64,000 nt of DNA from Leptolyngbya sp. CCY15150. Its GTDB lineage: Bacteria > Cyanobacteriota > Cyanobacteriia > RECH01. The position numbers and the translations under genes are program-made. The stretch is taken from positions 62,001-126,000 of the forward strand of contig NZ_JACSWB010000172.1 of NCBI RefSeq assembly GCF_016888135.1, read 5' to 3'. Of the stretch, positions 44,440 to 48,212 are shown one piece after another (within the stretch, counting starts at the first letter, position 1; every line of letters begins with the position of its first letter). A model generated the notes under the pieces. That model was not told the DNA's origin and did not search any database. It saw only the letters and a program-made list of their open reading frames with translations.

Positions 44440-44474
44440 GGATATGATCTGAAACCTATACCTGTAGCGGCAAT

Positions 44475-44495
44475 GGGGACAACCGAAGTTGCCCC
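44475..44495 (+). terminator. Possible terminator after the permease gene
   Basis: GGGG-A-CAAC pairs with GTTGCCCC around a CGAA loop, 35 bases after the stop. The T content downstream is modest, so the termination strength is uncertain. Confidence 0.4.
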
Positions 44496-44542
44496 GTTCG
44501 ATCGCTTTATAATTGAGTGATGTCCTGCCTTGGTTCACTCAT

Positions 44543-45040
44543 ATGCCTAAAATCGATCCTGCTGTCCTCAAACAGGTGACCGTTAGCCTGCCCTTTGGCA
44601 TTGGTTCTGCCTCCTGGGAAGCTGATCCTACGGAGCGCCATGCCGCATGGGAACTTTACATTGAGCTAGTAACGCGGGTTGCTGTTCAGTCTATGGATTC
44701 AGATCTTGGCACGCTCCGGGAGGCGATGAACTCGCTCTATAGCTTGTTTGGTTCTACCCGCGACATTTTGCGCAAGGCAGGGCCTAAGGTGGGGGCTTCT
44801 CGCGATTCGGTGGGCGGAATCGCGATCGCTGTCCTCAATAATGGTCTGCGGCCCTTTTTGTCCAAGTGGCATCCGCTATTGCAAGACTGGGAAGTGAAGC
44901 GAGCGGAGGGTATCAGTGTACAGGTGCATGAGAAAGCGTGGGACATGGAGTCAACGCTACGGGGTGACCTAGAAAAGCTTCGGGGTAATTTGGAGCAGTA
45001 TGCCCATGCATTAGCCAATATTGCTGGGGTGCAGGATTGA
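44543..45040 (+). CDS. Conserved hypothetical protein of an island next to a TIR-GUN4 gene
   Basis: 165 residues from ATG 44543, where the product begins MPKIDPAVLKQVTVSLPFG; a TTG ten codons upstream is also in frame. Highly regular helical stretches: AWELYIELVTRVAVQSMDSDLGTLREAMNSLYSLFGSTRDILRKAG, then GGIAIAVLNNGLRPFLSKWHPLLQDWE. No enzyme motif, signal or membrane segment. I have seen this type as a hypothetical protein in many bacteria but know of no function. Its stop overlaps the next gene, so the two are probably translationally coupled. Confidence 0.75.
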   Translation: MPKIDPAVLKQVTVSLPFGIGSASWEADPTERHAAWELYIELVTRVAVQSMDSDLGTLREAMNSLYSLFGSTRDILRKAGPKVGASRDSVGGIAIAVLNNGLRPFLSKWHPLLQDWEVKRAEGISVQVHEKAWDMESTLRGDLEKLRGNLEQYAHALANIAGVQD

Positions 45041-45291
45041 AGACAACGGCTTATTTTGAACAAAAGCTCCTCGACCGGCCAGAAATCCGGCGAGAATGGT
45101 GTCAACAAGTCTTGGAAAACACGCTCAAGACCCAGGTTCAAAGCAATGGTCGCATTAGTCATTGGGCTGTGATTCCAGACTATGGCGATCGCGTCCTGAG
45201 AGTGATTACCCTAGAGGATGGAGAAACCATTCATAATGCCTACTTTGACCGAAATTTTCGCTCTCGACTTCAACAAGGCTTAGAACCATGA
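45037..45291 (+). CDS. Small toxin-like protein paired with DUF2283
   Basis: 84 residues with a TTG start (45037) that overlaps the previous stop by four bases; a GGGG run is 8 bases upstream. Pattern: EWCQQVLENTLKTQVQSNGRISHWAVIPDYGDRVLRVITLEDGETIHNAYFDRNF. This matches the small partner typically encoded next to DUF2283 proteins, which are proposed toxin-antitoxin pairs; direct proof of toxicity is unknown to me. The stop overlaps the DUF2283 start by four bases (ATGA). Confidence 0.75.
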   Translation: MKTTAYFEQKLLDRPEIRREWCQQVLENTLKTQVQSNGRISHWAVIPDYGDRVLRVITLEDGETIHNAYFDRNFRSRLQQGLEP

Positions 45292-45503
45292 AAATTCAGT
45301 ATTTTCCCGATACAGATACGCTTTCCATTCGCTTGAATAACAATCCCAGCACAGAATCCACTGAAATTGCGCCAGATGTGGTCGTTGACTTTGATGCTGA
45401 AGGAGCAGTTGTAGGTCTAGATATCGATCTGGCTTCTTCAAAAGTAGATCTCAAACACCTAGATTTACAAGGATTACTGAGGCCAGAGTTGTTATCACGT
45501 TAG
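45288..45503 (+). CDS. DUF2283 domain protein (probable antitoxin-like partner)
   Basis: 71 residues: MKIQYFPDTDTLSIRLNNNP, APDVVVDFDAEGAVVGLDIDLASS, the beta-rich DUF2283 pattern. The ATGA overlap with the preceding gene implies coupled translation. Members are commonly found beside a small toxin-like partner and are presumed to neutralise it. The TIR-GUN4 gene starts 58 bases later. Confidence 0.85.
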   Translation: MKIQYFPDTDTLSIRLNNNPSTESTEIAPDVVVDFDAEGAVVGLDIDLASSKVDLKHLDLQGLLRPELLSR

Positions 45504-45560
45504 AGCCATAAGACCAATGACCACCCTGAGCACTAGACCTAAAGACAAGATTAAGGTGAT

Positions 45561-47024
45561 ATGGGGATGAGCTTTATTTTTATTAGCTATAGTCGTGAAG
45601 ATGTCGCCTACATTAAAAGGCTAGTACAGGCTCTTCAACAATATGAACTGCCCGTATGGCTCGATGAGCATACTGATGATGGCACAATATGGACGCATGT
45701 ACTTCAGGAAAAAGTTGAAGCCTGTCAGGCATTTCTGGTGGTAATGACACCTCGCTCTTATGCGTCTAGCTGGGTGCAGTCCGAGGTAACTTATGCTTTA
45801 GAGTTGAAAAAGCGAATCTTCCCGTTGTTGCTAGAAGGTAACCGCTGGCTAAGTGTTTCGGCTTTACAGACCGTGGATGTGACTAATGGAGAACTGCCGC
45901 CAGATAAGTTTTTTGATGGGCTATGCAAGCTTGTGCCACCCATGTCCTCAGGTTCTCTAACTCTGTCTAACGATGATGACCTTAGCAGTGAAAGAGGTAT
46001 TGACTATACCCGTCTACGCGATTTGCTTAAATCAGGTAACTGGAAAACCGCTGACATGGAAACGTATAAATTGATGATTCAGGCAGTTGGCAAAGGGACA
46101 AACGAGTGGTTTTCCGAAAAGGATTGTGATAGCTTTCCCTGTACTGACCTACTAACTATAGATAAATTATGGACAAAATATAGCAAAGGGCGATTTGGCC
46201 TTAGTGTGCAGCAGCAAATCTATGCTAGCTGTCGTGCGAAGCTTGATGAAAAATGTACAGATAATGAAGTTTGGAGTGAGTTTTGTAAGCAAGTTGGCTG
46301 GAGAGTAGATGGGCATTGGATCACATCAAGTGATGTTGTATATGATATGTCTGCTCTTCCAGGCCACCTTCCTGGAGGAAATCCAGGAAGCAGAGTATGG
46401 GTTGATGGTTTTGCTCTAGGAATTTGGTGTCATCCAAGACTCCTACATCGCATTGAGGCTTGTAATTTACCCTCAGAGAAAGGACTAGACTATTCTCGCC
46501 TGCGCAGTTTTCTCCAAGCATGTAATTGGCAAGCTGCAAACCAGGAAACCTCTGAATTAATGCTTCTGGCTGTTGGTAAGAAGCTAGGTGACGTTTTCAC
46601 GCCAGAAGAACTATTGAGTTTTCCGTTTACTGATCTACAGACTATTGATAGTTTATGGGAACAGTATAGTCAAGGAAAATTCGGCTTTAGTGTCCAAAAA
46701 CAGCTTTATGTTAGTTGTGGAGCAAAGCTCAGCGCGGAGTATCCAGGTGGTCAAGTTTTCTCTAATTTTGGAAAAATAGTAGGTTGGAGGGTGGATAACA
46801 CATGGATAGACTATGATCAAGTAGATTTTACAGGCACCGCTCCTCGCGGACATTTGCCAATGCCTCCTAGCACACTTATGAGTAAAATTGATAATGTTGT
46901 AGAAGTTGGTGACTGGTTTGGTTTCCCTTACCTTGCTTATAGGTTAGAATTTGGACGTAGCCCTGTTCACCGCGAAATTAAGTTTTTCTCGATTGATGAT
47001 GGATCTTATAAGAGACACAAGTAA
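45561..47024 (+). CDS. TIR-GUN4-GUN4 protein
   Basis: 487 residues (ATG at 45567 gives two fewer). TIR domain, about 2-125: FIFISYSREDVAYIKRLVQAL, VWLD, FLVVMTPRSYASSWVQSEV with Glu75 at the position of the catalytic Glu of NAD-cleaving TIRs. Two GUN4 domains, about 150-285 and 315-450, each with the GxDYxxLRxxLxxxNW/GNW start (DYTRLRDLLKSGNW; DYSRLRSFLQACNW), TIDKLW/TIDSLW and RFGLSVQ/KFGFSVQ. GUN4 binds protoporphyrin IX and Mg-protoporphyrin and stimulates Mg-chelatase. A fusion with TIR suggests coupling of tetrapyrrole or light state to TIR signalling (inference). The gene has no HIP1 site, unlike neighbouring genes, and is AT-richer: signs of transfer. The 58-base gap allows co-transcription with the three-gene cluster before it. 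Confidence 0.88.
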   Translation: MGMSFIFISYSREDVAYIKRLVQALQQYELPVWLDEHTDDGTIWTHVLQEKVEACQAFLVVMTPRSYASSWVQSEVTYALELKKRIFPLLLEGNRWLSVSALQTVDVTNGELPPDKFFDGLCKLVPPMSSGSLTLSNDDDLSSERGIDYTRLRDLLKSGNWKTADMETYKLMIQAVGKGTNEWFSEKDCDSFPCTDLLTIDKLWTKYSKGRFGLSVQQQIYASCRAKLDEKCTDNEVWSEFCKQVGWRVDGHWITSSDVVYDMSALPGHLPGGNPGSRVWVDGFALGIWCHPRLLHRIEACNLPSEKGLDYSRLRSFLQACNWQAANQETSELMLLAVGKKLGDVFTPEELLSFPFTDLQTIDSLWEQYSQGKFGFSVQKQLYVSCGAKLSAEYPGGQVFSNFGKIVGWRVDNTWIDYDQVDFTGTAPRGHLPMPPSTLMSKIDNVVEVGDWFGFPYLAYRLEFGRSPVHREIKFFSIDDGSYKRHK

Positions 47025-47147
47025 ATCTGGGATATGAATCATTAAGCCTATGACTGATTTACCATACGTTAATATAACGAATTCCAACCAAAGTCGAAAC
47101 TCCGACTGATTTGATACTCATCATGCAGACATATTCAAAATGAATAT

Positions 47148-48212
47148 TTAAATTGGTGCTTGGGTCATATCTTGAACGTGAGTTGTCAATCGCGTCAGGG
47201 TATCCGCCACAGTTCCTTCGCTCAACAATGTTGTTGCCAGATCCAGACCTGCGCTCAAATCGCTACAGGCTCCCGCCTGCCATAGATAAAATCCGCCATT
47301 CCACACCACCGATCGCATCATCTCACTGGGTTCTCCTGCCAAAACACGTTGGTAGCTGGCGATCAGGTCGCTGAAGGGCGGAAGGGGAACGTCGGTGCCG
47401 TCTAGGCCATAGTCGCGGGGGTGGAGCAGCAGGCGTTCGATGGGTTCTTCTGCACTGTGATGGACGCCAACAATGCCCGTGCGATCGCGGGGGAGATCGC
47501 AGCTTCCTTCCAGCCCCTTGACGGTCAAAAATCGTGGGGTGCCTCGCAGGGCAAAGGTCTGTTGGGCCATGCCTTCGGTGGGGGGATGAACATAGCCGAC
47601 GGCAATCTGGGCGGAGCCGGCGTAGGGTGCCCAGAACAGTTCGGCGGTGGCGAAGGGGGGGCGTTTACCAATTTGGTCGCGGTAGGGGACGATCTGCTGG
47701 GCCAGGGGGAAATGGTTGGGTAGATAGACGAAGCCGATGCCGATGGTTTCTAGGCTTTGCTGGCTTTGCTCTAGACTCAGGCGTTGCCAATCGACGCCTA
47801 GCCCTTGCCATAGTTCGACCAGGGGAACGCCGTACTTGGTGGGCATGCGATCGCCCCCATGCATGACCACAGGACAATCGGCTGCGGCCAAAATCAATGC
47901 CGTTAGGGGACTGATGGGAGCGGTGCGCGATCGCCCGTCGTAGGGATTGCTGAGAATCGTCACGGGGCGATCGCTGTTGATCGGCTGCAGTTTTGGGCCA
48001 AGGTCATCATAGGCATCCAGGATGCCGGCTAGCTCGTCCCCGTTGGGGCGCTTGATGCGATGGGCGATCATGAATGCGCCGATTTGGGCAGGGGTGGCCT
48101 CCTGCTGCAAGATCATCCGTGTAGCAGCGGCCGACTCTGCCCGAGTCAGGTCTTTGTGGGTATGGGTTCCACTTCCCACCTTTTGCAATAGTTCCCGAAA
48201 GACATGGCTCAT
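47148..48212 (-). CDS. TrpD2-like anthranilate phosphoribosyltransferase family protein
   Basis: 354 residues from ATG 48212, placed by GAGG 8 bases upstream; the frame is open 29 codons further upstream. Family features: FRELLQKVGSGTHTHKDLTRAESAAATRMIL, AAADCPVVMHGGDRMPTKYGVPLVELWQGLG, FVYLPNHFPLAQQIVPYRDQIGKRPPFATAEL and GTPRFLTVKGLEGSCDLPRDRT. It has the TrpD fold, but the usual nucleotide motif GTGGD is replaced by SNPYDGRSR. TrpD2/YbiB members are not tryptophan enzymes and bind nucleic acid in E. coli, so the pathway is open. Downstream of the LysR gene (55 bases). Confidence 0.82.
   Translation of the reverse strand: MSHVFRELLQKVGSGTHTHKDLTRAESAAATRMILQQEATPAQIGAFMIAHRIKRPNGDELAGILDAYDDLGPKLQPINSDRPVTILSNPYDGRSRTAPISPLTALILAAADCPVVMHGGDRMPTKYGVPLVELWQGLGVDWQRLSLEQSQQSLETIGIGFVYLPNHFPLAQQIVPYRDQIGKRPPFATAELFWAPYAGSAQIAVGYVHPPTEGMAQQTFALRGTPRFLTVKGLEGSCDLPRDRTGIVGVHHSAEEPIERLLLHPRDYGLDGTDVPLPPFSDLIASYQRVLAGEPSEMMRSVVWNGGFYLWQAGACSDLSAGLDLATTLLSEGTVADTLTRLTTHVQDMTQAPI

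Follow-up and report, generated by a model that had tools for sequence, protein, structure and literature searches.

The gene at positions 45561–47024 of the window (the whole stretch of 64,000 nt analysed here) encodes a protein with one TIR and two GUN4 domains, whose relatives carry a hypervariable segment where the GUN4 coding sequence approaches its 3′ end; this segment is replaced wholesale, not altered by drift, at a fixed DNA element. We propose, with a probability of roughly 0.55, that this large cyanobacterial family consists of conflict-type signalling proteins in which GUN4 is a display scaffold, and that its recognition loop undergoes an untemplated diversification linked to a RAYT. 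The window gene itself is probably a now-fixed or decaying member of this hypervariable GUN4 family.

The plus-strand open reading frame at 45561–47024 specifies 487 aa, and the domain order which the earlier note had read from it, TIR followed by two GUN4 domains, was confirmed by Pfam and by a GUN4 search of the genome. The TIR domain covers residues 6–115 (45576–45905; TIR_2, 3.6e-22), and PF05419 matched the whole protein at 4.7e-74 (score 247.6 against a cut-off of 29.2 bits) in two stretches, which the genome search placed at 45987–46400 (GUN4 domain 1) and 46473–46862 (GUN4 domain 2). Glu75, to which the same note had drawn attention, is present within SSWVQSE, and we take it to be the catalytic Glu at the WxxxE position of TIR NADases; the TIR domain is a predicted NADase. 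A single-sequence AlphaFold2 model of the protein reached a mean pLDDT of only 40.5. PD-T4-6 was the top PADLOC model (1.8e-80), with its best stretch, model positions 301–448, falling on the GUN4 part of the protein, but the kinase domain that PD-T4-6 requires had no Pfam match in the window protein. No ThsA domain of Thoeris was found in the five nearest neighbouring ORFs scanned. A scan of the genome contigs with the window protein gave a single weak relative, and the closest TIR–GUN4 relative (L012) is 49% identical, with a confirmed TIR domain and a recognisable copy of the DNA element at its end.

One housekeeping gun4 (L001) and nine other GUN4 matches, all in fusions, were found in the window genome, and the partners are TIR, SEFIR, caspase, NACHT and other regions (TIR and SEFIR labelled by Pfam; caspase, NACHT and HEAT by eye). 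Among 95 fused GUN4 proteins, the effectors are kinase (55), TIR (20, by TIR_2), caspase (7) and NACHT (3), partners that agree with the immune-type setting suspected for the window gene at the outset. Kinase–GUN4 was noted earlier (PMC1262709), TIR–GUN4 and further GUN4 fusions were described together with a tetrapyrrole-sensor proposal (PMC7159879), and cyanobacterial TIR, kinase and caspase fusions also appear in PMC8195603; in the parts of these papers that were covered, the domain architecture is the same and the setting is that of conflict systems. In the own genome, a SEFIR–GUN4 gene, a TIR–GUN4 gene and a gene for a SEFIR plus ThsB-TIR protein adjoin one another (L006/L010; G000:C173, ∼86–90 kb). 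In the phage-resistant substrain RE2 of Nostoc 7120, a GUN4-domain/kinase gene is reported to be mutated, among other mutations (PMC10811720).

Fused GUN4 genes are conserved up to the GHLP codons, followed by a G/T-rich stretch which cannot be aligned, and then by a conserved element, TCTTCTCTCGCRTCGAGACTTGTA... The C-termini of the relatives fall into three classes, which read ...LLSRRDL, ...FSRVETCKL and ...SSLASRLVNCNI before the stop, and these are the same DNA element translated in three frames, each of which it supplies with a short stop. With a search pattern made of the 20-bp core, the element was found in 56 of 386 genomes of a phylum sample (one genome per species) and in 30 genera, and the reversed control gave 1 match. 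The conservation of this core reflects the search itself, which selected for it; TCTT, the sequence further downstream and a second motif lie outside the pattern. The element has a sharp left edge, TCTT, and loses conservation by about +40 to +60. The second motif, GTTACCTGGCAC, is present at 31 of 129 loci; in 29 of these it lies 104–106 nt downstream, compared with 1 for the upstream control, and some loci hold a unit of ∼120 nt with two conserved ends. The element was absent from viral contigs, and an Rfam search with it gave a single weak sub-threshold match. It does not count as a canonical REP: it has no GTAG tag, its 5-bp hairpin is weak and poorly supported, with no covariation found, and, unlike REP, it is located at the 3′ ends of genes next to a variable segment. 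On two Nostoc plasmids, one mobilizable and one conjugative (AP018319.1, L152; NZ_CP054694.1, L153), it lies at the 3′ end of genes with WD-40 repeat and AAA-like annotations, and in L153 a RAYT follows.

At 111 of the 139 loci that carry the element, recognisable GHLP codons precede the variable segment, whose length ranges from 25 to 255 nt. Segment lengths modulo 3 are distributed 39/37/35 (n = 111; 44/43/42 in an enlarged set), and 108 of the 111 segments are open in the GUN4 frame, compared with 40 ± 4.5 expected from shuffles; open frames in the segments are kept by selection. The composition is G37 T33 A18.5 C11 versus G25 T27 A31 C17 in the core, the segment peptides contain 16% Gly and 8% Trp, and the segment is likewise G/T-rich in the non-coding copies (L064, L091). 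In certain segments, the flanking GGACACCTCCC or the edge of the element is duplicated locally. A few joins are placed atypically, within GUN4 in L105, within the kinase in L068, and in non-coding DNA in L064 and L091. Two loci carry tandem copies of the element, 51 and 70 nt apart (L118, L058), and L058 looks as though it had undergone a second event: behind its older element come a new G/T-rich stretch and then a fresh copy. In two further loci (L169 in G235, L170 in G095), the GUN4 variable region holds a long internal direct repeat with a RAYT alongside and no recognisable element; these regions are nearly identical across the two species.

In 67 pairs with cores at least 85% identical, the identity of the segments was 1.0 in 3 pairs and at most 0.56 in all others, with nothing between, and unrelated pairs gave a median of 0.40, with 95% below 0.53. 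At one orthologous locus (L037 in G149, L193 in G387 and L089 in G153), the upstream flanks are 87–95% and the downstream flanks 98.5–100% identical, and the segments of 51, 66 and 35 nt are mutually unrelated. Other pairs share both flanks more loosely (strict orthology holds for part of them, and two entries are repeats inside one locus), and a common segment was found only for L047/L049. Identical segments do occur in close species (L047/L049, L067/L104 and L034/L080), so some loci turn over slowly. In active members, the segment is replaced as a whole at a fixed element.

Clustering of the ORFs downstream of the element yielded a RAYT-type Y1 HUH transposase in convergent orientation, whose C-terminal match lies 55–280 bp from the element. 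This linked RAYT matches Pfam Y1_Tnp (6.5e-18), carries NHIH, WE and YIHANP motifs, and resembles class 2 by comparison with PMC6006769. Among the best 30 RAYT loci, a convergent GUN4 domain was found in 18 (17 at 65–463 bp and one overlapping), and a GUN4 domain on the same strand in none. When subfamily membership was defined by E ≤ 1e-30, 21 of the 386 genomes had both element and RAYT, 35 had the element only and 19 the RAYT only (OR 9.8, p 1e-9, phylogeny not corrected for). With only 21 of 56 element genomes carrying it, the linked RAYT is either not indispensable or replaceable by other RAYTs. The whole Y1_Tnp family, present in 38 of 40 genomes, is uninformative because it is near-ubiquitous, and only the linked subfamily is informative.

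From this pattern we infer RAYT cutting, untemplated synthesis, loop recognition and effector activation. A cut by RAYT at the element's left edge would free the GUN4 coding strand at its 3′ end, which would be trimmed and then extended without a template by some polymerase. The extended end would be rejoined, giving the gene a new segment, and each new segment would end at TCTTCTCTCGC, at element sites. Each event would equip the GUN4 surface with a new loop of ∼8–85 residues, rich in Gly, Trp and Val, in analogy to N-region addition in antibody CDR3. The loop would set what the protein recognises, and binding would switch on the N-terminal effector, here the predicted NADase TIR. In vertebrate CDR3, N-region addition inserts non-templated, G-rich filler of variable length at the junction. 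The GUN4 segments are similar in their non-templated-looking, G-rich junction filler of variable length and in their local duplications, but the GUN4 system has only one fixed edge, provides stops in all three frames where CDR3 has a frame requirement, and has no known terminal transferase or Ku. That cyanobacteria thereby possess an RT-independent generator of diversity, in which a RAYT opens the gene at a three-frame-stop element and untemplated G/T-rich writing yields a new recognition loop, is a tentative proposal to which we give somewhat less than even odds.

A mobile-element scar would be another origin of the same tails: a RAYT-associated miniature element would insert with a non-templated G/T-rich junction, and the tails would be tolerated and functionless. 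The element does occur between genes and within truncated ones (L064, L068, L088, L105), and both the two-ended unit of ∼120 nt at some loci and the RAYT linkage fit such an origin. However, functionless tails do not account for the position of the segment behind GHLP at 111 of 139 loci, for the 108 open frames where 40 are expected, or for segments that are swapped where element and flanks stay in place, so we regard the scar as unlikely, at about one chance in five.

Ordinary recombination, with cassettes or gene conversion supplied by GUN4 paralogues or a donor pool, would also replace segments. In several pairs the GUN4 core beside the segment diverges far faster than both flanks (L070/L087, L101/L203, L142/L146), and in L070/L087 and L142/L146 the core looks as if it had been exchanged too; the core often shows more divergence than the flanks, so that exchange can extend further left. 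However, searches for a donor of two segments, of 196 and 90 nt, in their own genomes found none, and the 111 segments share just G/T-rich words of 13–17 nt, near-orthologues and tandem copies apart, which leaves this explanation improbable. Untemplated, RAYT-linked replacement of a recognition loop is the reading we prefer for the origin of the segments.

The porphyrin-contact residues were compared in an alignment of 126 fused domains with the housekeeping copy (Synechocystis numbering). For the window protein, the earlier note raised the idea of a porphyrin or light-state sensor, whose GUN4 part would take up protoporphyrin or Mg-protoporphyrin and thereby control the TIR domain, and considered this coupling new; the TIR–GUN4 fusion and a tetrapyrrole-sensor proposal had already been published (PMC7159879). 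The GUN4 fold is clear, W189 is retained in 108 of the 126 domains and an aromatic residue at 192 in most, but F196 is retained in only 2, the R214 position is a gap in nearly all and F132 is substituted in most. Both window domains lack all three residues: the F132/F196/R214 positions are E/V/gap in domain 1 and P/V/gap in domain 2. Mutating the equivalents of F196 and R214 reduces porphyrin affinity (PMC8967248). Moreover, the housekeeping stretch with N211, R214 and R217 is exactly the part that is hypervariable in fused GUN4, even among orthologues. Porphyrin binding by fused GUN4 is not supported by these residues, the sensor model appears very improbable, and the standing tetrapyrrole-sensor reading of these domains would be corrected accordingly in favour of a display scaffold.

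Of 30 genomes that bear the element, 6 gave no RVT_1 match and none gave Ku, and both reverse-transcriptase rewriting and NHEJ were rejected on these counts. G149 and G153, whose segments at the common locus differ, have the RAYT and neither RVT_1 nor Ku. A DGR or other reverse-transcriptase system rewriting the GUN4 3′ end would share the fixed 3′ boundary and the hypervariable region in conflict-type proteins, and DGR-linked FGS domains are known from the same class of systems (PMC7159879), but we give it very little credence, as an RT seems not to be needed in the genomes just named, no template was found for the two segments tested in their own genomes, and the G/T-biased filler is of arbitrary length and frame, whereas a DGR substitutes specifically at adenines and leaves the length of the region fixed.

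The known prokaryotic segment-replacing diversification systems that we considered use a template or an existing cassette, whereas the GUN4 pattern points to untemplated replacement. The effectors joined to it are diverse (kinase, TIR, caspase and NACHT), and the element tolerates any reading frame. In the covered parts of the published fusion papers, where GUN4 is interpreted as a tetrapyrrole sensor (PMC7159879), the hypervariable 3′ end, the three-frame element and the RAYT are not mentioned, and in open-licence literature we found no description of a hypervariable GUN4 or of a RAYT with untemplated synthesis. The GUN4-tail pattern looks like an undescribed way to diversify immune-type receptors. 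If RAYT is the nuclease, a group of domesticated transposases would gain a testable host function.

In the window gene, the corresponding features are partly eroded. The variable stretch 3′ of GHLP in GUN4 domain 1 lies at 46374–46439 (GGNPGSRVWVDGFALGIWCHPR; placed by comparing relatives), and is followed at 46440–46478 by a decayed copy of the element (CTCCTACATCGCATTGAGGCTTGTAA...) with a local score of 33, which was reached in 0 of 2000 Markov shuffles. This copy is in the frame of the ...FSRIETCKL class, has no stop, and is read through into GUN4 domain 2. In the tail of domain 2 beyond GHLP (46860–47021), the element is undetectable, and 607 of 2000 shuffles scored as high. No RAYT adjoins the window gene, and the window genome has no close member of the linked RAYT subfamily.

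The locus is also unstable between congeners. The gene had been thought imported because it is free of HIP1 sites, and no HIP1-free gap in the window is indeed larger than the one that contains it (45185–47481, 2,296 bp); by itself, this gap is weak evidence of import, because with 174 HIP1 sites per 64 kb ∼0.3 gaps of that size are expected by chance. Recent import or turnover is instead supported by composition and by congeners. GC3 is 0.355 in the TIR–GUN4 gene versus 0.56–0.67 in the flanking ABC-transporter, 175-aa, GT3 and LysR genes. In congener G393, the stretch 44447–47148 is missing: position 44446 is joined to 47149 with ∼27 bp between, and there is no TIR–GUN4 gene. Congener G394, with flanks 91–94% identical to the window, keeps the 5′ part of 44447–47148 and has a different TIR–GUN4 gene there, with 34% aa identity across TIR and GUN4 domain 1, and 48% to GUN4 domain 2. 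Replacement in G394 and absence in G393 thus make this a locus of turnover. Directly upstream, at 45037–45503, an 84-aa ORF overlaps a DUF2283 gene (71 aa), GC-poor like the TIR–GUN4 gene; these two genes, retained in G394 and missing from G393, could be a small toxin–antitoxin-like pair.
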